From Hymenobacter swuensis DY53 (GTDB taxonomy: Bacteria; Bacteroidota; Bacteroidia; Cytophagales; Hymenobacteraceae): 64,000 nucleotides of DNA. The notes under the pieces were generated by a model. It saw only the letters and a program-made list of their open reading frames with translations. It searched no databases and was not told the DNA's origin. The translations under genes and the position numbers were made by a program. The DNA lies in the NCBI RefSeq assembly GCF_000576555.1, contig NZ_CP007145.1, positions 4,796,501 to 4,860,500 of the forward strand, given 5' to 3'. Below, in pieces: positions 9,802 through 60,317 of this stretch (its first letter is position 1; every line of letters begins with the position of its first letter).

Positions 9802-11670
9802 ATGTTTCAGCAAGAAGAATACGATGTCATTGTAGTAGGAGCCGGGCATGCCGGCTGCGAGGCCGCCGCCGCGGCTGCCAACATGGGCTCCAAAGTCCTG
9901 CTGGTGACGATGAACATGAACACCATCGCGCAGATGTCGTGCAACCCGGCCATGGGCGGGGTGGCCAAGGGCCAGATTGTGCGCGAGGTGGACGCGCTGG
10001 GCGGCCAGTCGGGCCTCATCACCGACAAAACCATGATTCAGTTCCGGATGCTGAACCGCTCCAAAGGCCCCGCCATGTGGAGCCCCCGGGCGCAGAGTGA
10101 CCGGATGCGGTTTGCTGAGGAGTGGCGCATGACGCTGGAGCAAACCCCCAACGTGGATTTCTGGCAGGAAGCCGTCATGGGCCTCGTGGTGGAAGAGGGC
10201 GCGTGTGTGGGCGTGAAAACCCAGCTCGGCATCGAGTTCCGGGGCAAGTCGGTGGTACTCACCAACGGCACGTTCCTCAACGGCCTCATCCACATCGGGG
10301 AGAAGCAGTTTGGCGGTGGCCGGGCGGCCGAGAAAGGGAGTACCGGCATCACGGAGCAGCTGATTGAGCTGGGCTTTGAGGCCGGCCGCATGAAAACCGG
10401 CACCCCGCCCCGCGTGGACGGCCGCTCGCTCGACTACAGCAAAATGGAGGAGCAGGCCGGCGACGCCGAGCCCAGCAAATTCAGCTACCTCGACACGCCC
10501 GCCCTGCGCAACCAGCGCCCGTGCTACATCACCTACACCAACCCAGAGGTGCACGAAATCCTGAAGGAGGGCTTCGAGAAGTCGCCGATGTTCCAGGGCC
10601 GCATCAAGGGCCTGGGGCCGCGCTACTGCCCGTCGGTGGAGGACAAAATCAACCGCTTCGCCGACAAGGACCGCCACCAGATTTTTGTAGAACCGGAAGG
10701 TTGGTCCACGGTGGAAGTGTACGTGAACGGCTTTAGCTCTTCGTTGCCCGAGGACGTGCAGTACCGCGCCCTGCGCAAAATTGCCGGCTTCGAGAATGCC
10801 AAGATGTTCCGGCCCGGCTACGCCATTGAGTACGACTTCTTCCCGCCGACCCAGCTCCAGCTCACCCTGGAAACCAAGCTGATCCAGAACCTCTACTTCG
10901 CGGGCCAGATCAACGGCACCACGGGCTACGAGGAGGCCGCCTGCCAGGGCCTGATGGCCGGCATCAACGCCCACAACAAGGTGCACGGCAAAGCGCCCTT
11001 CGTGCTCAAGCGCAGCGAGGCCTACATTGGCGTGCTCATCGACGACCTTGTGAACAAGGGCACCGACGAGCCCTACCGCATGTTCACGAGCCGCGCCGAG
11101 CACCGCCTGCTGCTGCGCCAGGACAACGCCGACCTGCGCCTCACGCCCCTGGGCTACGAGCTGGGGCTGGCTTCGGAGGAGCGCATGCAGCTGGTGCGCG
11201 AAAAGGAGCAGCAGACCAAGGAAGTTGCCAAGCTGCTGAAGAACTTCGGCATCGAGGCTGCGGACATCAACCCCTGGCTCACGGAAATCGGGTCGGCCGT
11301 TATCAGCGAGAAAACCCGCGCCGTGAACCTACTGCGCCGTCCCGGCATCGACCTGCCGGCCCTAGCCCGTGTGCTGCCCGAACTCACCCTGGCCCTGGCC
11401 CCGTACCGCCCCGACGCGCTGGAGCAGGCCGAAATTCTGGTGAAGTACGAGGCTTACCTGGAGAAGGAGCACCAACAGGCCGCCCGCGTGCAGGAGCTGG
11501 AAAACTTCGTGATTCAGGGCCGCCTCGATTACACCGCCATGCCCGCCCTCTCGCACGAAGCCCGCGAGAAGCTGCTCAAGATTCAGCCCGAAACCCTGGG
11601 CCAGGCCAGCCGCATCAGCGGCGTGAGCCCCGCCGACGTGTCAGTGTTGATGGTGTATTTGGGGCGTTAA
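9802..11670 (+). CDS. mnmG: tRNA uridine-5-carboxymethylaminomethyl modification enzyme MnmG (GidA)
   Basis: 622 residues, the normal family length. With MnmE it builds the cmnm5U34 modification in tRNA anticodons, using FAD and methylene-tetrahydrofolate. Visible features are the FAD-binding GAGHAGCEA motif (G13-A21), the conserved C47 in the CNPAMGG segment, the second conserved cysteine in RYCPSVEDK, and the family C-terminus [12 protein letters not shown]. mnmG/gidA lies next to oriC in many bacteria; here the predicted origin is 3.2 kb downstream. MnmE is not in the window. It is followed by a perfect 45-bp palindrome and a terminator. Confidence 0.98.
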
Positions 11671-11822: not shown

Positions 11823-11864
11823 CCGGCCGCCGTTTCTTTCCGAAACGGCGGCCGGTTTGGTTTT
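11823..11864 (+). terminator. Intrinsic terminator after mnmG
   Basis: A perfect 13-bp stem CCGGCCGCCGTTT/AAACGGCGGCCGG (11823-11835 with 11843-11855) is followed by TTTGGTTTTG. Confidence 0.85.
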
Positions 11865-11865
11865 G

Positions 11866-11873
11866 TACCTTCG
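11866..11873 (+). promoter_or_regulatory. -7 promoter box of the methyltransferase gene
   Basis: TACCTTCG is one base off TAnnTTTG. It lies directly behind the mnmG terminator and gives a leader of about 65 bases. That leader contains an AATCAGCGAAATCAACATAA-type repeat, also seen in part at 55973-56173. Confidence 0.5.
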
Positions 11874-11943
11874 CCTTGCGGCTGGCTTCTCTGCGCAGGC
11901 CGGTTGTCGCAATCAGCGAAATCAACATAATCAGCGAGCATCT

Positions 11944-12834
11944 GTGATTTACGAGCGTTTGGAGAAGTGCCCGGTTTGCGGCAAAACGGAGTTTCGCAAC
12001 AAGCTGGTGGTGGAGGATAAGTCAGTCAGCAAGGAGAGTTTCGCCATTCAGCAGTGCGAAGCGTGCACGTTCCGGTTCACCAACCCGCGGCCCGACGCCG
12101 CCCACATCGGCCGTTACTACGAGTCGGACGAGTACGTGTCGCACAACAGCGGGGCAGGAGGGGTCATCAACCAGGCTTACAAAGTGGCCCGCTACTTTAC
12201 CATGCGCCGCAAGGTGGCCCTGGTAAATCAGCGCGCCAGCAAGGGCCGTCTGCTCGACTACGGCTGCGGCACGGGCCATTTCCTGGCCGCCGCCAAGGCC
12301 GACGGCTGGCAGGTAGCCGGCTGGGAGCCCAACGCCCGCGCCCGGGAGGAAGCCACCGAGCGGGTGGGCCAGCCCATCGGCACCGAGAGCCTGGTGCAGT
12401 TTCAGCCCGCCAGCTTTGATGCTATTACGCTCTGGCACGTGCTGGAACACGTTCATAGCCTGAACGAAACCCTCGCGCAGCTCATCAGCTTGTTGAAGCC
12501 CGACGGTACACTCGTCATTGCCGTGCCCAACGTGGACAGCCTCGACGCCCAGCACTACCGCCAGGACTGGGCCGCCTACGACGTACCGCGCCACCTTTAT
12601 CATTTCAGCCCCAAAACCATGACCCACCTGCTCAAAAAGCACAAAATGCAGGTGGTGGAAGTGCTGCCCATGCCGCTGGATGCCTATTACGTGAGCATGC
12701 TCAGCGAAAAGCACCGCGCCGAGCGGGGCGGCGGGATGCTCACCGTGCTCAAAGCCGGCTACAAATCGAACCAGTACGCCGCCCAGCACGAAGGCCAGTA
12801 CAGCAGTCTGATTTACGTGGTGCGCAAACGCTAA
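11944..12834 (+). CDS. Class I SAM-dependent methyltransferase with N-terminal zinc-finger-like motif
   Basis: 296 residues from GTG 11944 (reads as VIYERLEKCPVCG). The open frame extends upstream to 11857, but that part covers the promoter and an intergenic repeat. The N-terminus has two CxxC pairs (CPVC and CEAC), probably a zinc knuckle. The SAM-binding motif LLDYGCGTGHFL and the motif DAITLWHVLEHV identify a Methyltransf_23-type domain. Proteins of this layout methylate small molecules or surface glycans; the substrate is not evident. It stands alone between two palindromic repeats. Confidence 0.88.
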   Translation: MIYERLEKCPVCGKTEFRNKLVVEDKSVSKESFAIQQCEACTFRFTNPRPDAAHIGRYYESDEYVSHNSGAGGVINQAYKVARYFTMRRKVALVNQRASKGRLLDYGCGTGHFLAAAKADGWQVAGWEPNARAREEATERVGQPIGTESLVQFQPASFDAITLWHVLEHVHSLNETLAQLISLLKPDGTLVIAVPNVDSLDAQHYRQDWAAYDVPRHLYHFSPKTMTHLLKKHKMQVVEVLPMPLDAYYVSMLSEKHRAERGGGMLTVLKAGYKSNQYAAQHEGQYSSLIYVVRKR

Positions 12835-12952: not shown

Positions 12953-13003
12953 TAAGTAGCGGCCGGGCCTGACAGTTTTAGGCCGGAGCCGCGTTACAGC
13001 GTG

Positions 13004-13011
13004 TACCTTCG
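13004..13011 (+). promoter_or_regulatory. -7 promoter box of the Ig-like lipoprotein gene
   Basis: TACCTTCG, one base off TAnnTTTG, lies 65 bases before the chosen ATG. Confidence 0.45.
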
Positions 13012-13075
13012 AAGCTCGGAAACGCCGGCCCGGTCGTTGCCGAACCTCGTCACCCTTTCCAACCTGCTTCCCGCG

Positions 13076-14707
13076 ATGCTCCGACCTGCCTGCGCCCGCG
13101 CTTCCTTATTTTTAGTAGTAGCCGCAGCGGCGGGACTGAGCGGCTGCGCGGCCATCAGCTCGCCCGAGGGCGGCATTCGGGACACGATTCCGCCCAAGCT
13201 GGTGCGCACGGTACCGGCCAACGGCACCCGCAACTACCAGGGACAGTCGGTGCGGCTGGAATTCTCGGAGCAGGTGCAGCTGAAGGAGCTGGCCAAGAAC
13301 CTCATCGTAGCCCCGTTGCTTTCTGACGACAACCCTTATAAGGTGCGCGAAGACCGCACCTCCATCACCCTCACCTTCGACAAGGCGCTGGCCCCGAATA
13401 CCACCTATTCCTTTAACTTCGGCACCGCCATCAGCGACATTACGGAGAGCAATCCGGCTGCCAAGGCCGTGGTCAGCTTCAGCACTGGCCCCGAGCTGGA
13501 CTCGGCCTCGGTGCGGGGCACGGTGGTGGATGTGCTGAGCCAACAGCCGGTAGAAAATGTGGCCGTGGTGCTGTATCCTGAAGCCGACACGGCCAACGTA
13601 CGTCGGGGCCGCCCCACCTACCTGGCCCGCACCGACAAGGCTGGCCAGTTCGAGCTGAATTACCTGAAGGCCGGCCAGTACCAGGCGTACGCCTTGGCCG
13701 ATAAAAACCAGAACAACCGCTACGAAGAGCCCGAGCGCATCGGCTACCTGCCCGGCCTGCTCACCGTGGGCGGCCCCGCTTCCGACAGCCTGCGCTTCGT
13801 GCTCACCCGCCCCGACACGCGCCGCCCGCTGGTAACTACTCAGAAACCCGAGCCTACGAGCTACCGCGTGAGCTACACCGAAGGCATAGTGCAAACTACT
13901 CTGGCCCCGCTGGGCGCGGCAGCTACGCCTCTTCTGAACGAGGCCGTACAGCTGGCGGAGCGAGGCCGCACCGCCGTCCTCTACCGCATCCCTGAGCTGT
14001 CCGAAGGCCGCTACCTGCTCACGGCCACCGACAGTGCCGGCAACGTAGGGCGCGACACGATTAACGTGCGCTTCCAGGGGAACGCGCCGGCTAAGCGTGG
14101 GGCAGCTTATACAGTGGAAGGCAACCCGCGCGAGGTGTACCGCCAAGGCCAGGTGAAGTTCGTGTTCAACGAGCCGGTGCGCATAGCTCCTGACAGGCCC
14201 ATTGGTACACTGACGGAAGACTCCCTGAAGCGGCGGCCTTTGCGGCTGCCACAGGATGGCACCCTCAGCCTCGGCCGCACCGAGCTGGCCCTGAACCTGA
14301 ACACCAACGCCCGCAAAATCGTCACGTTTCAGCTCGACAGCACGGCCATCCGTAGTATTACGGGGCAGTCGTTGGGGCTGAAGCCGCTCCGGCTGCGCGT
14401 GGTGGAGCAAACCAGTACCGGCACGCTCAGCGGCCCCGTCCAGACCACCGCCAAGCGGTATTGGGTGCAGCTGCTGGAAGCCAACGGGCAGATCCAGACC
14501 ACCCTCGATTCGCCCAAAGGCACCTACCGTTTCGATAACCTGCAGCCTGGCACCTACCGCCTGCGCATACTCATCGACCAGAACGGGGACGGCCGCTGGC
14601 AGGGCGGTGACCCACAACTGCGCCAGCTGCCCGAGCCGGTAGTGCTATTTCCCAAAACCATTCAGGTGCGCTCCAACTTCGATAACGTGGAATCCTTAAG
14701 CTTCTAG
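13076..14707 (+). CDS. Ig-like domain lipoprotein (Bacteroidota SbsA-type Ig family)
   Basis: 543 residues from ATG 13076; the open frame upstream to 13001 overlaps the promoter. A lipoprotein signal ends in the lipobox LSGC (C24). Directly after it comes SPEGGIRDTIPPKLV and a Big_5/SbsA-type Ig-like domain, with NGTRNYQGQSVRLEFSE as its first strands. The rest is beta-rich with carboxypeptidase-regulatory-like segments (FELNYLKAGQYQAYALAD, YRFDNLQPGTYRLRIL). This layout is common in Bacteroidota outer-membrane lipoproteins with no assigned function; a cell-surface or periplasmic binding role is only inferred. It is the last gene before the origin region. Confidence 0.85.
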   Translation: MLRPACARASLFLVVAAAAGLSGCAAISSPEGGIRDTIPPKLVRTVPANGTRNYQGQSVRLEFSEQVQLKELAKNLIVAPLLSDDNPYKVREDRTSITLTFDKALAPNTTYSFNFGTAISDITESNPAAKAVVSFSTGPELDSASVRGTVVDVLSQQPVENVAVVLYPEADTANVRRGRPTYLARTDKAGQFELNYLKAGQYQAYALADKNQNNRYEEPERIGYLPGLLTVGGPASDSLRFVLTRPDTRRPLVTTQKPEPTSYRVSYTEGIVQTTLAPLGAAATPLLNEAVQLAERGRTAVLYRIPELSEGRYLLTATDSAGNVGRDTINVRFQGNAPAKRGAAYTVEGNPREVYRQGQVKFVFNEPVRIAPDRPIGTLTEDSLKRRPLRLPQDGTLSLGRTELALNLNTNARKIVTFQLDSTAIRSITGQSLGLKPLRLRVVEQTSTGTLSGPVQTTAKRYWVQLLEANGQIQTTLDSPKGTYRFDNLQPGTYRLRILIDQNGDGRWQGGDPQLRQLPEPVVLFPKTIQVRSNFDNVESLSF

Positions 14708-14730
14708 CATTTCGTTTTCCGCTTTTCCCG

Positions 14731-14763
14731 CCCGATTCCGCTCTGCCGGAATCGGGCTTTTTT
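14731..14763 (+). terminator. Intrinsic terminator bordering oriC
   Basis: A perfect 10-bp stem CCCGATTCCG/CGGAATCGGG is followed by CTTTTTT. It shields the origin region from transcription coming from the left. Confidence 0.92.
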
Positions 14764-14892
14764 GTAGTGGCCGGTGGCGCGGTTACCGGATGATTCGGGT
14801 AAGCTGCCGGTCCTGTGCGGCTCCTGGCCGGCAGTTCCGGCAGCCCCTCTTAAAAGTGCAAATAGCTACTCTATAGATTTGTCTTTCCAAAG

Positions 14893-15409
14893 ATATCCAC
14901 ACCCCAAAAGTGCGCCTATGATTCAGCAGGTCGGTTTCTAGTTTTCCCGAAACTACTATCCACATAAGTTATCCACCCTAATCGGCGTAAGCGGCGTAAC
15001 CTGTGGATAATAGTGGGGAAACCTGGGGATAACCCGTGGAGAACTTGCGGACAAGTTTTTTTGCATCTGAGCCGGCTAGCACACCCTCTTGGTCATGTAC
15101 AAAACCTGTGGATAGCCGTGGATAACTATCCCCCGAAAATCCCACAATCCACACACCTGTGTGGATGTGGATTGTGGATTTCTGGATAACTACTGTGGAT
15201 TGTGAAAAACCTATTTAAGTAACTGATAACATGTTATTTACTATCCACATACCCTGTTGATAGACGGTGTATAACTCTGCTTTTGTACACATGTTATCCC
15301 CGCCGTGGATAACCATTAATTCTTATCCACTTATGAACACCCCTAACGACAGAGATAAAAAGAGATTTTTAAATAAAAGATTTTTTAAAAGTTATTAACC
15401 TGTGGAAAA
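14893..15409. other. oriC: Predicted chromosomal replication origin oriC
   Basis: A gene-free stretch with at least twelve 9-mers within one base of the DnaA box TTATCCACA. + strand: 14893, 14956, 14969, 15241, 15323. - strand: 15002 (perfect), 15024, 15107, 15117, 15181, 15304, and 15401 (TTTTCCACA, a full TTWTNCACA match). An inverted pair CACAATCCACA (15143-15153) / TGTGGATTGTG (15166-15176) lies in the middle. The right edge is an AT-rich block (15351-15398) that could be the unwinding element. Extra boxes lie at 15697 (TTATCCACC), 16936 (perfect) and 16970. dnaA is not adjacent, as I recall for many Bacteroidota origins. mnmG, recF, dciA and a parS site in the window support the call. 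Confidence 0.88.
15351..15398. other. AT-rich block, candidate DNA unwinding element of oriC
   Basis: 48 bases that are almost all A/T (runs AGAGATAAAAAGAGATTTTT and GATTTTTTAAAAGTTATTAA). A DnaA box follows immediately at 15401 and others lie just to the left. This is the expected place and composition for strand opening. Confidence 0.7.
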
Positions 15410-15800
15410 GCCAGCCGGGTTTCCGGTCAGCCAGTTCAGGAAGAAAAGCCGGGTTTAGCCTGAGTAGGCTGTTAGGGCCAGCCGCAGGTTGTGCGGGAAG
15501 CACGGTTGACTAAACCAGCAGCTCCGGGAACAGCATCCGGCATCTAGCAGCTTCTGTCTGCGTACTCGGCAGCGAATGGGTTTTCCGCAGTTCTCATGTA
15601 GACAACCAGTGTGGGTAATCCGGTCCAACATGCTAGATGCGGCTGCCAGCGCCAATCGTGTTGATAAGATATTGGTTATCAACATATACAGGATATTTAT
15701 CCACCATGCAGCGGGTATTGAGTAAAGTGGAAGGCAGCCATAGGCTGGCAACCGGCGTATAGGGAGATGCGCCTGTTCTGCCCTTTCCGGTTTCCCACCT
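15410..15800. other. Gene-free right flank of oriC
   Basis: No convincing gene. It contains a GTTGATAA/TTATCAAC inverted repeat (15660-15667 with 15676-15683) and one more DnaA-like box, TTATCCACC at 15697-15705. A - strand open frame here has no family features. Confidence 0.55.
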
Positions 15801-16292
15801 ATGCCTTTCAATTATCAACAGGATTTCCACACCGTTAATTTCCGCCAGCACCCGGAACATTACCGCGTGGGCAAAGGCGAGCAGGGCGTGCTACTGGTGC
15901 AGCCTTATAAAGGCGAGATTCTGCCCCACTGGCGCTTCCGCACTCCTTCGGTGGCCCGGGAGTCTTCAGAGCAGATCTACGCGCTGTTTGAGGCCTACTT
16001 GAAGGCTAATGACTTTGTGGGCGCCGACATGGCCCGCAAGTTTCTGCAGATGGGCTTTACGCGGGCAAGGCGTTATGCCAACCACAGAGGTGGCAAGAAG
16101 TACGACGGCCCCGTACCCGATGACAAGAAAGGGCAGAGTGGCAGCCACGGTCGCGCCGAGTTGCCCCGCTCTCCCGAAGACCCGGAAAAGGCCGAAGCCG
16201 CCGCCATTTTTAAACGCAAGTGGGACGAGGCCAAGCAACACCCCGACTATCTCCGTCAGCGCGCCGAATTTGAAGCGCGCTACGGCAAATAA
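15801..16292 (+). CDS. DUF4385 family protein
   Basis: 163 residues, full length for the family. The conserved core is visible: FRQHPEHYRVGKGEQGVLLV, LPHWRFRTP, FVGADMARKFLQMGFTRARR and YANHRGGKKYDG. The function of DUF4385 is unknown to me; the many conserved basic and aromatic residues suggest nucleic-acid or nucleotide binding, which is speculation. The gene begins about 390 bases from the DnaA-box cluster. No clear -7 box is visible in front of it. Confidence 0.9.
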   Translation: MPFNYQQDFHTVNFRQHPEHYRVGKGEQGVLLVQPYKGEILPHWRFRTPSVARESSEQIYALFEAYLKANDFVGADMARKFLQMGFTRARRYANHRGGKKYDGPVPDDKKGQSGSHGRAELPRSPEDPEKAEAAAIFKRKWDEAKQHPDYLRQRAEFEARYGK

Positions 16293-16445: not shown

Positions 16446-16928
16446 ATGACGACTCCAGCCCAACCCTCCAGCACCGAAGAAAACGAAATCAGCCTCGGCA
16501 CCGGCATGGGCCCGCTCAAGTTTGGCGCTTCCATGGATGAGGTGCGCGCCCTGATGGGTGAGCCCGAAGAAATTGAAGAGTCGGAAGACGACGACGAGTT
16601 TGAGCACCAAGCTTGGAACTACCTCGAAGAAGGCTACTCCCTGTATTTTGACCGGGAAGACGACTACCGCCTGAGCTGCATCGAGACGGACCACCCCGGC
16701 ATGCGCCTCTACGGCGAGGCCATCCATGGCAAAAGCCCCGAGGAAATCCAGGAGCTCATGAAGCGCCACGGCCACGAACACAGCGAAATCGAGAAAATGG
16801 ACACCGGCGAGATGCGCATCTCCTACGAAAAGGAAATGATTGACCTCTATTTCGACGACGAGGAGCTGCAGTTTGTCAACTTCGGTGTGTTCATAAACGA
16901 CGACCTAGACGTGCAATGGCCTGCCTAG
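16446..16928 (+). CDS. Small acidic protein of unknown function
   Basis: 160 residues, strongly acidic (an EEIEESEDDDEFEHQ stretch near residue 40). The opening GTGMGPLKFGASMDEVRALMGEP is typical of cytoplasmic small domains that begin with a short LKFGMS-like strand and a helix, found in many uncharacterised and immunity-type proteins. There is no signal peptide or membrane segment, and I do not recognise a named family. DnaA boxes begin 8 bases after its stop (16936-16944 and 16970-16978), so its 3-prime end is embedded in the origin domain. Confidence 0.8.
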   Translation: MTTPAQPSSTEENEISLGTGMGPLKFGASMDEVRALMGEPEEIEESEDDDEFEHQAWNYLEEGYSLYFDREDDYRLSCIETDHPGMRLYGEAIHGKSPEEIQELMKRHGHEHSEIEKMDTGEMRISYEKEMIDLYFDDEELQFVNFGVFINDDLDVQWPA

Positions 16929-16935
16929 ATCTTAG

Positions 16936-16978
16936 TTATCCACAAATTAGCTTGTTTTTAGTGTTGATAAGTGGATAA
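16936..16978. promoter_or_regulatory. Outlying DnaA boxes
   Basis: TTATCCACA at 16936-16944 is a perfect DnaA box, and AGTGGATAA at 16970-16978 (- strand) is one base off. They lie 1.5 kb from the main cluster, separated from it by two genes. Confidence 0.7.
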
Positions 16979-17070
16979 GATGCTAAGTATCGGGAGTTTT
17001 CAACAGTTTTTCCCAACGCGGGAGGTTTTGCTAGTAGTACTAGCACGCTGCTGATAATCAGGTAAAAAAC

Positions 17071-17105
17071 AAAAAAGCCGCCCCGGTAACGGAGCGGCTT
17101 TTTTG
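17071..17105. terminator. Bidirectional intrinsic terminator
   Basis: The stem AAAAAAGCCGC/GCGGCTTTTTT has A- and T-runs on both sides. It ends both the + strand acidic protein gene and the - strand phosphate transporter gene. Confidence 0.9.
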
Positions 17106-17142
17106 TGTGATTTCAAGAGCAGGTTGCGCTGCCCTATGGTGC

Positions 17143-18549
17143 TTAGCTCGGAATGATGGCCCGGAATAGCAGGAACAATCCGCCGGCCAGCGTCATCGTC
17201 ACGGGTAGGGTGAGTACCCAGGCCAGGGCAATGTTGCGGATCATCTGGGGGTTCAGGTTCTTGATGCCGCGGTTGGCCACCATGCTGCCGGCAATGGCCG
17301 ACGACAGGACGTGGGTGGTAGAAACAGGCAGGCCGAACTGGGTGTTCACTCCAATCATGGCGGCGGCTACCAGTTCCGACGACGCACCCTGCGCGTACGT
17401 CAGGTGCTCCTTCCCGATTCGCTCCCCGATGGTTTTCACGATGCGCTTCCAGCCCACCATCGTACCAATACCCAAGGACAGGGCCACCATGAAGGAAACC
17501 TCCCAGGGCGCGTAGTCCGTGAAAGTGCGCATCTGCTTGATGCTGTCCTCGAAGGTGGTGCGGTCGGCGGTGCTCAGGGGCACTTTGTCGCTGGAGGTAA
17601 GTTTCTTGGCGCGGTTGTTCAGCAACAGAATGGCCTTGCGGATTTCGAAGCGGGCCGTTTCGGGCAGTTGCTTCACGTCGGTTTTACCGGCGAAAATCTG
17701 GTCCAGTGTGCTTGTCTGGGTCCGGATGTCGGCCAGCAGCTTGCTGTCGGCTTCGCTCAGGCCGTTCACGTTCACCTTGTTCATCACCATTTCCACGTTG
17801 GTCAGCGACGCGCGCATATCCAGCGGGTTCAGCTTGGAGTTCAGGGCAAAGTGAATGGGCACGATGCCGATGAGAATCAGCATGATCAGGCCCACGCCCT
17901 TCTGGCCGTCGTTGGAGCCGTGGAAGAAGCTCACCAGCGTGCAGGTGGCAATCAGAATCAGACGAATCCAGAGGGGTGGCGGCTTGCGCTTGTGGGGCTC
18001 TTTAAAGATGGACTTGTTGGCCACAAACCGCTTCAACAGAAACATCATGATGATGGTCAGCGAGAAGCCGAAGATGGGGCTGATCAGCAGAGAAGCCATG
18101 GTTTCGCCGGCTTTGCCCCAGTTCACGGCTGCTCCGTTCGACTCGGGCAGCAGGGAGTAGGCAATGCCCACGCCTAAGATGGACCCAATGAGGGCGTGCG
18201 ACGACGACGAGGGCAGGCCGTAATACCAGGTGCCTACGTTCCAGATGATGGCCGCAATGATAAGCGCGCCCACCATAGCAATGCCGTGGTACACGTTCTG
18301 ATCTACGAGGCTTTCCACCGGCAGCAGGTACACGATGCCCATGGCCACCGCAATACCGCCCGTAAGCACCCCGATGAAGTTCCAGAAGCCCGACCACACC
18401 ACGGCCACCCAGGGCCGCAGCGTGTTGGTGTAAATCACCGTAGCCACCGCGTTGGCCGTATCGTGGAAGCCGTTTACAAATTCAAACGCGCAGGCTGCTA
18501 CCAGACAGGCAATCAGCAGCAGCAGCACATGAGGCTCTAAGCCAAACAT
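17143..18549 (-). CDS. pit: PiT family inorganic phosphate transporter
   Basis: 468 residues, multi-spanning. Both PiT family repeats are visible: GFHDTANAVATVIYTNTL near the N-terminus (GANDVANA-type motif) and GVNTQFGLPVSTTHVLSSAIAGSM near the C-terminus. GSNDGQKGVG marks the inner loop region. Between the halves is a soluble insert of roughly 100 residues (about 240-340) with charged helices, as in other Bacteroidota PiT proteins. PiT proteins couple phosphate (or metal-phosphate) uptake to protons or sodium. The gene has its own well-formed promoter and shares a terminator with the gene at 16446. Confidence 0.96.
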   Translation of the reverse strand: MFGLEPHVLLLLIACLVAACAFEFVNGFHDTANAVATVIYTNTLRPWVAVVWSGFWNFIGVLTGGIAVAMGIVYLLPVESLVDQNVYHGIAMVGALIIAAIIWNVGTWYYGLPSSSSHALIGSILGVGIAYSLLPESNGAAVNWGKAGETMASLLISPIFGFSLTIIMMFLLKRFVANKSIFKEPHKRKPPPLWIRLILIATCTLVSFFHGSNDGQKGVGLIMLILIGIVPIHFALNSKLNPLDMRASLTNVEMVMNKVNVNGLSEADSKLLADIRTQTSTLDQIFAGKTDVKQLPETARFEIRKAILLLNNRAKKLTSSDKVPLSTADRTTFEDSIKQMRTFTDYAPWEVSFMVALSLGIGTMVGWKRIVKTIGERIGKEHLTYAQGASSELVAAAMIGVNTQFGLPVSTTHVLSSAIAGSMVANRGIKNLNPQMIRNIALAWVLTLPVTMTLAGGLFLLFRAIIPS

Positions 18550-40147: not shown

Positions 40148-40163
40148 TGTTCCACGTGAAACA
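40148..40163. promoter_or_regulatory. parS: parS-like centromere site (ParB binding)
   Basis: TGTTCCACGTGAAACA is a full match to the bacterial parS consensus TGTTnCACGTGAAACA. It lies 6 bases after the HTH gene stop codon and about 25 kb from the predicted oriC. parS sites usually cluster near the origin, so the location fits. parA and parB are not in the window. Confidence 0.88.
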
Positions 40164-41395: not shown

Positions 41396-41719
41396 CTATA
41401 GGAATACGACTTCCTTTATGATGTCCTCGCCGACTTCGGCGTTGAGGTTTTCCAGTACCCGAGTCTTGGCCATGAACAGTTCGTGCTTGAGCGGAGCGGA
41501 TGAAAGCCGTACAAACAGCTTGTTGTTGCTCACGTATACCTGCTGGGTTTTCATGGCCACGGCCTTACCCATTACCTTCTCCCAACTAGCCACTACTGTT
41601 ACCTCGTTGAGTTTGCCCTGGAGCCGATAAACGCGCAATAGTGCCTTAATACCATCCCTTAGTGGAACAATATCGGACTGGCGTGAATTTTCGGAGGAAT
41701 GTGGTTTTTTAAGCGCCAT
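41396..41719 (-). CDS. dciA: DciA/DUF721 family replicative helicase loader-like protein
   Basis: 107 residues from the ATG ending at 41719 (MALKKPHSSENSRQS); an in-frame start at 41755 would add 12 residues. The DUF721 core is visible: ALLRVYRLQGKLNEVTVVASWEKVMGKAVA, then a strand-rich half ending LFVRLSSAPLKHELFMAKTRVL. DciA is the ancestral loader or operator of the DnaB helicase in bacteria without DnaC/DnaI. It lies 64 bases downstream of recF on the same strand, a pairing also seen in other phyla (recF-DUF721-gyrB). It is probably cotranscribed with recF. Confidence 0.85.
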   Translation of the reverse strand: MALKKPHSSENSRQSDIVPLRDGIKALLRVYRLQGKLNEVTVVASWEKVMGKAVAMKTQQVYVSNNKLFVRLSSAPLKHELFMAKTRVLENLNAEVGEDIIKEVVFL

Positions 41720-41783
41720 TACAGTTATTAACGCGCGAGAAAACTCTTCTCGCACCGGGCTTCAAAGATACCACCCACCTTAC

Positions 41784-42896
41784 CTAAAGCGGCTGCACAC
41801 TTCCCAACTCTACCCGGAACCGGCGGATATCTTCGGAGAGGTCGGCCAGTACCCGGTCGGTGCGCTCCAGGTGAGTATCGGTCAGGAAAATCTGGCCGAA
41901 GGTATGATTGGCTACCAGCTGCATAAGGCGGGTGATGCGCTTCTCATCTAGTCGGTCGAAGATGTCATCGAGGAGCAGCAGCGGCTTTTGCTGCTTGTGC
42001 GCGGCCAGGATTTCAAACTGCGCCAGCTTGAGGGCAATGGCAAACGACTTCTGCTGCCCCTGCGAGCCATACCCTTTTACCGGTAGCTCATCCATAAGAA
42101 ACGTGAAGTCATCACGGTGGGGGCCGGTGGTAGTGCGTTGCAGCGTGAGGTCCTTGCGCTCATTCAGACGAAGCAGTTTCAGGAAGTCGGCTCCCGGCAG
42201 CTCACTCTTATAGGTAAGAGTCACGACCTCGCGGGCATCGGCTAGCTGCTCATAGTGACGCTGGAAGATGGGCTCGAATTCCGTGAGAAATTCTTGCCGC
42301 CGCTGCACTAGCTGCTCGCCCACGGGGGCCAGCTGCTCATCCAGCACTAATAGGTAGTCCCGGTCGTAACCGGCTTGGCGGTCAGCGGCCAGCTTGAGCA
42401 GGGAATTGCGCTGCTTCAGCAGGTGCGTGTACCGGATTAGCTGCTCCAGATACGTGTGGTCGAGTTGGGAGAGGAGGCTGTCGAAATACTTGCGCCGTTC
42501 CTCGCTGCCCTGCCGGATCAGGTCAGTATCGTAGGGCGAGATAAGCACCACCGGGTACCGCCCAATATGGTCCGATACCCGCTCGTAAGCCTGCTTGTCG
42601 TGGGTTACGGTTTTCTTCTGGCCCTGACGTAGACTGCACTGAATGGTTTCAGGCTTTTCGTCGGGTGCGGGACGGAAGCGCCCCCGCACCACAAACAGCT
42701 CTTCGCCCTGCTTAATACTCTGGGCGTCGGAAACCGTAAAGGCACTCTTAGTGAGGGAGAGGTAGTGGATTGCGTCGAGCAGATTCGTCTTGCCGCTGCC
42801 GTTGTCACCCACAAAGCAGTTGATGTGGGCGGAGAAGCTCAGATTGGCTTCTTCGTAGTTTTTGAAGAACAGCAGATGGAGGCTTTCGAGGTTCAT
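41784..42896 (-). CDS. recF: DNA replication and repair protein RecF
   Basis: 370 residues from the ATG ending at 42896 (MNLESLHLLFFKNYEEANL); the longer frame to 42953 overlaps the pdhA promoter. It is an SMC-like ATPase that helps load RecA at gapped DNA with RecO and RecR. Walker A is GDNGSGKTN (30-38), the signature motif is YGSQGQQKSFAIALKLAQ, and Walker B is LLLLDDIFDRLD. It stands with dciA in a likely two-gene operon. In many bacteria recF lies next to dnaA-dnaN at the origin; here it is 26 kb from oriC. Confidence 0.96.
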   Translation of the reverse strand: MNLESLHLLFFKNYEEANLSFSAHINCFVGDNGSGKTNLLDAIHYLSLTKSAFTVSDAQSIKQGEELFVVRGRFRPAPDEKPETIQCSLRQGQKKTVTHDKQAYERVSDHIGRYPVVLISPYDTDLIRQGSEERRKYFDSLLSQLDHTYLEQLIRYTHLLKQRNSLLKLAADRQAGYDRDYLLVLDEQLAPVGEQLVQRRQEFLTEFEPIFQRHYEQLADAREVVTLTYKSELPGADFLKLLRLNERKDLTLQRTTTGPHRDDFTFLMDELPVKGYGSQGQQKSFAIALKLAQFEILAAHKQQKPLLLLDDIFDRLDEKRITRLMQLVANHTFGQIFLTDTHLERTDRVLADLSEDIRRFRVELGSVQPL

Positions 42897-42927
42897 GCTT
42901 AAGGTTCGGAATTGCAATCCTTTTACG

Positions 42928-42935
42928 TACTTTCG
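42928..42935 (+). promoter_or_regulatory. -7 promoter box of pdhA
   Basis: TACTTTCG, one base off TAnnTTTG, lies 30 bases before the pdhA ATG, in the short region divergent from recF. Confidence 0.55.
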
Positions 42936-42964
42936 CATCCCAAACGCGAACAACCGAAAGCAAG

Positions 42965-58481: not shown

Positions 58482-60317
58482 ATGAAAGCTACTTTGCTGG
58501 CCCTCGGGCTGAGCCTCGCCACCGCTTCGGCCGCTTTGGCCCAACAGCCCGCTGGCTACCAGATTCGCCTCGATTTGCAGCAGGTGACCAACGACCGGGT
58601 GAAGGTCGTTATTAATACCCCCGCTATCCGTGAGGCGCAGGCTACGTACGTTATGCCCTCGGTGGTGCCCGGCTCGTACTCCAAGAAGGATTACGGCCGC
58701 TTCGTGACCAGCTTCAAGGCGTTTGATAAGAATGGCAAGAGCCTGAAGGTGAAGAACAACGGCCCCAACCTGTTTGTCATCGACAACGCAACCAAGCTGG
58801 CCCGCCTCGAATACCTGGTGGACGATACCTGGGACGTGAAGCAGGACGACCAGTTCATCTTCCAGCCCGGCGGCACCAACATTGATGCCGGCCGCAACTT
58901 CACTATTAACCATTACGGCTTCTACGGCTACTTCGAGGGCTACAAGATGCTGCCCTACGAGGTGCAGGTGCAGAAACCCGCCGACCTCTACGGTGCCACC
59001 GCCTTGGATGTGCGCCGCGCTTCAACTACGCAGGACGTATTCACGGCCTCCAACTACGTGACGCTGGCCGACGGCCCCATCCTCTACGCCCGCCCCGATA
59101 CGGCCAGCTTCAGCACCGGCGGGGCCCGCATTTCGGTGGCCGTGCTGTCGGAGAGTGGCGCGGTGAAGGCTGCGGACGTAAGCCAGATGCTGCGGCCTAT
59201 GTCGGAGGCCTTGACGAAGTACTTTGGTAAGATGCCAGTGCCGCGCTACCAGTTTCTGTTCTACTTCCCCAGCCTCACCTCGGCGCTTAATAGCGAAAAA
59301 GGCGGTTACGGGGCCATGGAGCACAGCTACTCTTCTCTCTACTTCCTGCCCGAGCTGCCCGACGCCGACCGCCTGCGCAGTATGGTGCTGGAAGTGGCCT
59401 CGCACGAGTTTCTGCACATGCTGGCCCCGCTCAACATCCATTCCCGCGAAATCGGGGAGTTCGACTTCCGCAACCCCCAGATGTCGCAGCACTTGTGGCT
59501 GTACGAGGGCGTGACGGAGTACGTGTCGCAGCTGGTGCAGGTGCAGGGCGGGCTTATCACGCCGGAGGAGTTTCAGAAGCGCGTGAAGGAGAAAATCGAC
59601 AAGTCGGATAAGTACGCCACCGTGTCGTTTACGGAGATGAGCCGCCGCATTTTGGAAGACCCGTACAAAGACATGTATGAGAACGTATACAACAAGGGCG
59701 CGCTCATCGGGCTGCTGCTGGACATTCGCATCCGGGAGCTGAGCCAGGGCCGCCAGACGCTGCGCGACGTGCTGCTGGCCCTGCGCGAGAAGTACGGCCC
59801 CACCCGCTCCTTCGAGGACAAAGACCTGATTCCTGAAATCGTGGCCCTTACCAACCCCGAAATCGGGACGTTCTTCCGCCGCTACGTGGAGGGCGCCGAG
59901 CCGCTGCCGCTGGCCGAGGACCTGGCCAAAATCGGGTGGACGTACGCGCCCACCGGCCAGGCCCGCGTGAAGGCGTTCGGTAACCTGGGCTTCGCCTATG
60001 ACCAGAGCAAGGACCAGTTCCGGGTAGCCAAAACCAAGCCTGAGGACAACGCCTTCGGTCTGGACGAGGGCGACGTGGTGGTGGCTATCAACGGGCAGTC
60101 GGTAACGATGCAGACCGCCGAGAAGCTGCTGCGCCCGTTGGTAGAGCCCCAGACGGCCGACGCCGTACGGGTGAAGTTCCGCCACGGCAACGGTGCCGAG
60201 CAGGAACGCCAGGCCACCCCGCGCGAGTTTGAAGTAGAAGTCAAGAACCTCGTCGAAACGCAGTCTGCTGCCACTCCCGCCCAGCAAACGCTGCGTAGCA
60301 GGTTGTTAAAAGGGTAG
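58482..60317 (+). CDS. M61 family metallopeptidase with PDZ domain (glycyl aminopeptidase type)
   Basis: 611 residues. The signal peptide ends at ALAQ (about residue 21). An N-terminal beta domain contains YVMPSVVPGSYSKKDYGRF, typical of M61. The zinc motif is HEFLH (H308, E309, H312) in VASHEFLHMLAPLN, with the downstream LYEGVTEYVSQ supplying the third ligand region. A PDZ domain follows near the C-terminus (DNAFGLDEGDVVVAINGQSV). It should act in the periplasm on peptides or proteins with small N-terminal residues. It is monocistronic and followed by lptB with its own promoter. Confidence 0.95.
   Translation: MKATLLALGLSLATASAALAQQPAGYQIRLDLQQVTNDRVKVVINTPAIREAQATYVMPSVVPGSYSKKDYGRFVTSFKAFDKNGKSLKVKNNGPNLFVIDNATKLARLEYLVDDTWDVKQDDQFIFQPGGTNIDAGRNFTINHYGFYGYFEGYKMLPYEVQVQKPADLYGATALDVRRASTTQDVFTASNYVTLADGPILYARPDTASFSTGGARISVAVLSESGAVKAADVSQMLRPMSEALTKYFGKMPVPRYQFLFYFPSLTSALNSEKGGYGAMEHSYSSLYFLPELPDADRLRSMVLEVASHEFLHMLAPLNIHSREIGEFDFRNPQMSQHLWLYEGVTEYVSQLVQVQGGLITPEEFQKRVKEKIDKSDKYATVSFTEMSRRILEDPYKDMYENVYNKGALIGLLLDIRIRELSQGRQTLRDVLLALREKYGPTRSFEDKDLIPEIVALTNPEIGTFFRRYVEGAEPLPLAEDLAKIGWTYAPTGQARVKAFGNLGFAYDQSKDQFRVAKTKPEDNAFGLDEGDVVVAINGQSVTMQTAEKLLRPLVEPQTADAVRVKFRHGNGAEQERQATPREFEVEVKNLVETQSAATPAQQTLRSRLLKG

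Follow-up and report, generated by a model that had tools for sequence, protein, structure and literature searches.

A probable chromosomal origin of replication near mnmG and far from dnaA in Hymenobacter, with a conserved three-box DnaA module beside it

The window analysed here is a 64-kb stretch (C3:4,796,501-4,860,500) of the genome of Hymenobacter swuensis DY53, which totals 5.25 Mb in four contigs; taxonomy look-up places the genus in the Cytophagales, Bacteroidota. Contig C3 comprises 4,904,241 bases (4.90 of the 5.25 Mb) and carries dnaA and all three 16S matches. It is therefore the main chromosome, and the possibility that it is a plasmid, raised in the original prediction of a chromosomal origin at this locus, was discarded together with that of a second chromosome. 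From left to right, the window encodes MnmG (GidA; 9802-11670, + strand), a SAM methyltransferase-family protein (11857-12834, +) and a Big_5 Ig-like-domain protein (13001-14707, +), the immediate left neighbour of the presumed oriC. Behind the Big_5 gene, a terminator-like hairpin (14730-14757, +) forms the left boundary of the oriC region, as had been predicted; the 2.6 kb scanned contains 8 terminator-like hairpins, compared with 3.7 in shuffles. To the right lie genes for a DUF4385 protein (15801-16292, +; PF14328, E 5e-70), a small acidic protein that matched no Pfam family (16446-16928, +) and, convergent with the latter, a PHO4-family phosphate transporter (17143-18549, -). Farther along are TGTTCCACGTGAAACA (40148-40163), the sole site in the genome within one mismatch of the parS consensus, and genes for the helicase operator DciA (41396-41755, -; PF05258) and a RecF/SMC_N-family protein, probably recF (41784-42953, -). 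The minus-strand dciA and RecF-like genes adjoin, with the parS-like site about 1.2 kb away. The neighbours named in the original prediction were all recovered, namely DUF4385 and the small acidic protein close by and mnmG, recF, dciA and parS in the wider vicinity.

The main DnaA-box cluster occupies 14893-15409 and comprises twelve sites within one mismatch of TTATCCACA, exactly the number first claimed, of which one (at 15002) is an exact copy. The window as a whole holds 26 such sites, compared with a mean of 6.7 and a maximum of 13 in 100 dinucleotide shuffles of it. Because the 5.25-Mb genome holds 734 (540 for the reversed pattern), about 0.07 boxes are expected per 517 bases, and the Poisson probability of at least 12 is 4e-23. 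Near the right end of the cluster, a tandem pair of boxes spaced by 8 bp (TTATCCACTTATGAACA; 15323-15339, +) borders an AT-rich block at 15351-15398; within one mismatch, the TTATCCACTTATGAACA composite is found at only two places genome-wide, 15323-15339 being one of them. With 42 of 48 positions A or T, the block exceeds every other 48-mer of the window in AT content, in agreement with the earlier reading. It contains two 15-nt direct repeats (15357-15386), is closed on its right by the box TTTTCCACA (15401-15409, -) and is probably the DNA unwinding element (DUE). A search of the array sequence by eye against the consensus of DnaA-trios, part of the basal unwinding system, found no clear multi-trio run.

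Additional boxes had been reported at 15697, 16936 and 16970, and all three are present, with further ones at 15610, 15659, 15676, 15812 and 16962. Those starting at 15610, 15659, 15676, 15697 and 15812 are scattered over 15610-15820; the first four are poorly conserved, and the box at 15812 falls within the DUF4385 gene. The region had also been described as gene-free. This holds for the array, which is non-coding; the gap between the Big_5 and DUF4385 genes (14708-15800) is overlapped by a single 118-aa open reading frame (15455-15811) in a stretch that is not conserved.

Stretches of C3 amounting to about 1.2 of its 4.90 Mb were scanned at one mismatch and contain no cluster richer in boxes; away from the array the maximum was 3 boxes per 600 bp. 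Within one contiguous stretch of 444 kb, only the oriC locus exceeds 3 boxes per 500 bp. Exact boxes form close pairs at three more places in the genome (C3 59.8 kb, 68.2 kb and 447 kb), which were discarded as richer clusters, having at most 3 boxes each. A richer cluster elsewhere, which the original prediction named as counter-evidence, is thus absent from the sequence covered. The only dnaA in the genome is at C3:3.62 Mb, 1.19 Mb from the origin locus and so far from it, as had been proposed. It has no box cluster of its own in the stretch examined, and was rejected as the origin with four single, unclustered boxes in 20 kb. The DnaA protein carries GGRDHSTV, a motif linked to DnaA box recognition. 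The distance from dnaA to the DUF4385/origin locus was 0.97-2.12 Mb in all 11 genomes measured (our own plus all seven one-contig and all three two-contig genomes among 101 of the genus, ten of them with rounded sizes). Expressed as a fraction of a half-chromosome, this distance is 0.39-0.56 in 10 of the 11 and 0.97 in the other.

GC skew was sampled in 43 stretches of 15-20 kb along C3, two of which overlap. It was positive in 19/22 stretches at 0-2.45 Mb and in 2/20 at 2.45-4.81 Mb, and again in the remaining stretch, at 4.86 Mb. The best two-breakpoint fit places the origin at 4.80-4.85 Mb and the terminus, roughly half a chromosome away, at 2.4-2.5 Mb; with the origin set to the contig end (0 Mb), the fit is somewhat poorer (residual 0.0341 versus 0.0303). 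Because genes carry skew in this genome, the analysis was repeated with gene strand included, using 59 stretches in which genes were called by codon position and from which the window and one overlapping stretch were excluded. In this sample, genes are C-rich at third positions on the coding strand, and raw GC skew tracks gene orientation (correlation -0.63), so correction is needed before an origin can be placed. Skew was positive in 26/31 stretches of one replichore compared with 5/28 of the other, and the replichore effect persisted after gene-strand correction (t 7.7). On both gene strands, the difference in third-position skew between replichores had the same sign, and the skew of sequence outside called genes was +0.056 versus -0.054. 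A cruder gene caller applied to the first sample gave little replichore difference in third-position skew; both callers were home-made.

The skew signal is weak. Over the contiguous 444 kb, the raw cumulative minimum falls 50 kb to the right of the boxes, at 4,861,526, and inside the window raw cumulative skew is lowest near 40 kb, which would suit a reading of the cluster as a DnaA titration or regulatory site with the true origin elsewhere within about 60 kb, for example at window 40-43 kb, where parS and recF-dciA lie. We consider this very improbable: the gene-strand-corrected minimum falls at C3:4,813,002 (window 16,502), 1.1 kb right of the array and between it and the second box module at 16936-16978; no other place in the 444 kb rises above 3 boxes per 500 bp; and the most AT-rich 48-mer is set between conserved boxes in a cluster that is itself conserved as non-coding DNA. 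When only sequence outside called genes is counted, the cumulative curve has a flat valley with its minimum 40 kb to the left, at 4,771,705. The skew minimum anticipated at about 15 kb was thus borne out in sampled form, by the fit, the corrected replichore effect and the corrected minimum at 16.5 kb. The 16S genes are oriented + at 0.50 Mb, - at 3.43 Mb and + at 4.90 Mb, so that 3/3 are co-directional with forks leaving 4.81 Mb, and the genome's one parS-like site is 25 kb right of the origin locus.

Conservation was assessed in two sets, the best 80 of 260 relatives of the DUF4385 protein (hereafter named loci; by title 77 Hymenobacter, two Pontibacter and one Solirubrum) and 101 Hymenobacter genomes drawn evenly from a larger group; counts from the two are not independent because the sets probably share species. 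At least four boxes occur within 1.2 kb upstream of DUF4385 in 76/80 named loci. Among the exceptions, extra DNA parts the cluster from DUF4385 in L079, where the cluster still stands behind the Big_5 gene; L131 is on a contig that starts 4.3 kb upstream; and L136 and L139, both from Pontibacter, have few standard boxes upstream of DUF4385. L136 has a 688-aa reading frame before DUF4385 and, read by eye, an AT-rich stretch with degenerate boxes behind its Big_5 gene. DUF4385 and the small acidic protein are adjacent near the origin even in the Pontibacter loci. The gene order is the same throughout, with mnmG in 74/80 loci, the methyltransferase in 77/80, Big_5 in 77/80 and the acidic protein in 79/80, some of the loci ending early at contig ends. 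The origin is tied to mnmG, the methyltransferase and Big_5, not to dnaA. When the window is aligned with 75 loci (L079, L131, L136, L137 and L139 left out), a non-coding core at about 14956-15408, which takes in the AT-rich block, is conserved, and conservation declines to either side. Each half of the 15323-15339 tandem pair is within two mismatches of a box in 74/75 rows, as is the closing box at 15401 (74/75), and the main-array box most often exact is so in 43/75. Positions 15610-15705 show no conservation in this alignment; for the box at 15697, 30 of the 75 rows are ungapped, and 13 of these are within one mismatch.

Outside the genus, we examined 23 of 40 genomes from other families of the order and, from 119 class genomes, 16 outside the order; dnaA was absent from all 39 stretches searched. 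Clusters of 5-22 boxes per 600 bp lie 3' of mnmG in 13/23 same-order loci and exceed all 40 shuffled copies of each locus. Eleven of these are 1.0-5.0 kb beyond the mnmG match, one is at 8.0 kb and one at 13.2 kb. Two further loci show a weak grouping (3 boxes, at about 2.4 kb), and 8/23 have no box cluster near mnmG, in a sample where clusters on the 5' side would be missed because 20/23 stretches reach mostly 3' of the gene. Outside the order, linkage between mnmG and a cluster was not clear by this method in 15/16 loci, and the exception has only 4 boxes. In twelve of the 16, the density near mnmG does not exceed 3 boxes per 600 bp. The other four have 4-6: two of these groups are situated upstream, more than 10 kb from the mnmG end, another is no better than its shuffles and the last is 2.7 kb 3' of mnmG.

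The box cluster beyond chance, the AT-rich element that adjoins it by sequence, the sampled GC-skew switch, the 16S orientation, the single parS-like site, synteny and conservation support the original oriC interpretation, and 14893-15409 is very probably the origin of the H. swuensis chromosome. From the layout, DnaA is predicted to bind at this position, which would then melt and fire. DnaA, encoded 1.19 Mb away, would bind the box array; the tandem pair at 15323-15339 would steer a DnaA filament into the AT-rich block at 15351-15398; and the block would melt and take the helicase, probably delivered with DciA, which PMC5109545 describes as a helicase operator.

A second module, TTATCCACA-N17-TGTKGATAAGTKGATAA, occupies 16936-16978 and consists of an exact TTATCCACA (16936, +), a 17-bp spacer and two reverse boxes in an 8-bp tandem (16962, - and 16970, -). 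It is placed between the acidic-protein gene and the convergent phosphate-transporter gene, about 1.5 kb from the AT-rich block, and because it sits between two 3' ends it is not the promoter of either neighbour. The boxes at 16936 and 16970 in the original prediction are thus real, and the fixed layout of the module across the genus is an additional finding. Allowing up to two mismatches, TTATCCACA-N17-TGTKGATAAGTKGATAA occurs at one place per genome in 101/101 Hymenobacter genomes (in G056 also on the opposite strand, at an overlapping position), and the reversed-pattern control had no match in the same genomes. The module is within 1.5 kb of DUF4385, start to start, in 98/101 genomes and at 3.0 kb in one; in the other two it is on a contig other than that of DUF4385, and in one of these, G035, DUF4385 is split and its second piece is on the contig of the module. 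The tandem TTATCCACTTATCAACA is found within one mismatch only twice in the H. swuensis genome, in the module and beside the AT-rich block.

An opposed box pair with a start offset of exactly 26 is present in 77/79 testable named loci (L126 is too short, and for four of the 77 another pair ranks first) and is missing only in the two Pontibacter loci. Module box 1 is exact in 75/78 aligned rows, although conservation of boxes 1 and 2 is partly by construction because rows were chosen for having those boxes within one mismatch. Box 3 was not a criterion for rows, and is within two mismatches of a box in 77/78. The module as such was not found in the 39 stretches of other families; in two of them, L202 and L208, dense clusters include a pair of opposed boxes offset by 26.

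We infer that the module is a DnaA assembly site linked to the origin, which either forms half of a bipartite structure or acts as a DARS/datA-like control site. Its location between convergent 3' ends, the inverted repeat made by its opposed boxes and single-strand folding slightly better than that of shuffles (z -1.55, 15/200 as good) would also fit a bidirectional terminator or another kind of hairpin. We regard this as distinctly improbable and rejected it as the function of the module, given that a separate, strong GC-rich terminator hairpin is present at 17069-17106, that the third box is kept without having been selected for and lies outside the 16936/16962 inverted repeat, and that the folding excess is weak.

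The main rival to a looping role is that 16936-16978 is a DARS- or datA-like site that resets the nucleotide state of DnaA or titrates DnaA, and not a structural half of the origin; this is possible but rather unlikely in our estimate. As in the cores of E. coli DARS1 and DARS2, the module has three intergenic boxes with an opposed pair, and its order (+ - -, boxes I and II opposed) is also that of three good DARS2 boxes hand-picked among several sites. It persists where extra DNA separates it from the main array (L079) and where it is parted from DUF4385 (G050), which favours the DARS-like role. E. coli DARS sites are distant from oriC, whereas the module is next to it, only about 1.5 kb from the AT-rich block; its box offsets are 26/8, compared with 14/12 for the picked boxes in our DARS2 scan; and a match in orientation alone is weak. 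According to PMC8682772, opposition of boxes I and II is a feature of the DARS core.

Most likely, the module would assist or regulate the same origin by holding a small complex of DnaA in contact with the main array, with the DUF4385 and acidic-protein genes looped out in between. Our tentative proposal, which we hold to be plausible at somewhat less than even chances, is a two-part origin not built around dnaA, in which the main array with its DUE is joined by a single-copy three-box platform of fixed geometry about 1.5 kb to its right. This platform, built with the tandem pair also present at the DUE border, would act by looping or DnaA reset and be needed for normal initiation genus-wide. 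Bipartite origins, as portrayed in PMC5043019, have box modules that flank dnaA and interact by DnaA looping (Bacillus subtilis and Helicobacter pylori). As in these, two box modules about a gene's length apart are found in Hymenobacter; unlike them, the Hymenobacter modules enclose DUF4385 and the acidic-protein gene with no dnaA between, and the second module has only three boxes.

The E. coli oriC is not beside dnaA, and its DUE sequence and box pattern are unlike those of Hymenobacter. It is near mnmG/gidA, as in Hymenobacter, where the right-hand neighbours differ from the gidA-oriC-mioC layout outlined in PMC10225481. Nor is separation of oriC from dnaA special to Hymenobacter; PMC4755523 calls it common in Bacteroidetes. 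Chromosome I of Prevotella intermedia (PMC4755523) and DoriC/Ori-Finder predictions likewise have a box cluster at a skew switch and a distant dnaA; compared with those Bacteroidota origins, the Hymenobacter neighbourhood, core sequence and second module have been traced across a genus. Ori-Finder origins at mnmG are given for two Flavobacteriaceae, Mariniflexile (PMC11278836, where the main text has oriC at mnmG and a figure legend marks mnmG as ter) and Algorimicrobium (PMC12843772). These are beside mnmG and fit the GC skew, as in Hymenobacter, and in Mariniflexile the dnaA position is reported not to fit the skew. The Hymenobacter origin differs in being about 3.2 kb from mnmG, with the methyltransferase and Big_5 genes between, and in its conservation at the level of single boxes. 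No paper on Hymenobacter origins was found in the open literature searched, nor any description of the second module, for which one search alone named Hymenobacter; as far as the literature was searched, the constant three-box module is new.

In Hymenobacter genome records rotated to dnaA, position 1 is about 1 Mb or more from the origin, and rotation of this kind therefore distorts skew plots and replication-rate estimates. For locating the origin in Hymenobacter and in part of its order, the mnmG-(methyltransferase)-Big_5 block is the better landmark, and the 43-bp module offers a defined target for studying initiation control where dnaA is far away. One record, G072, begins at dnaA (C1:484), about 1.4 Mb from its DUF4385/origin locus.

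Some boxes elsewhere on C3 were also observed. A single TTTTCCACA box is about 96 bp upstream of the listed dnaA start (C3:3622890-3622898), where it may serve autoregulation. Two other close pairs of exact boxes, C3:59791-59820 (in a stretch that ends at 60000) and C3:447077-447097, are outside the listed reading frames of at least 90 aa. At C3:68250-68289, three DnaA boxes, two of them exact, lie about 160-200 bp upstream of a gene for a protein that, by eye, we take to resemble ribosomal protein L21 and that is followed by an L27-like one; these boxes possibly place a ribosomal operon under DnaA control.
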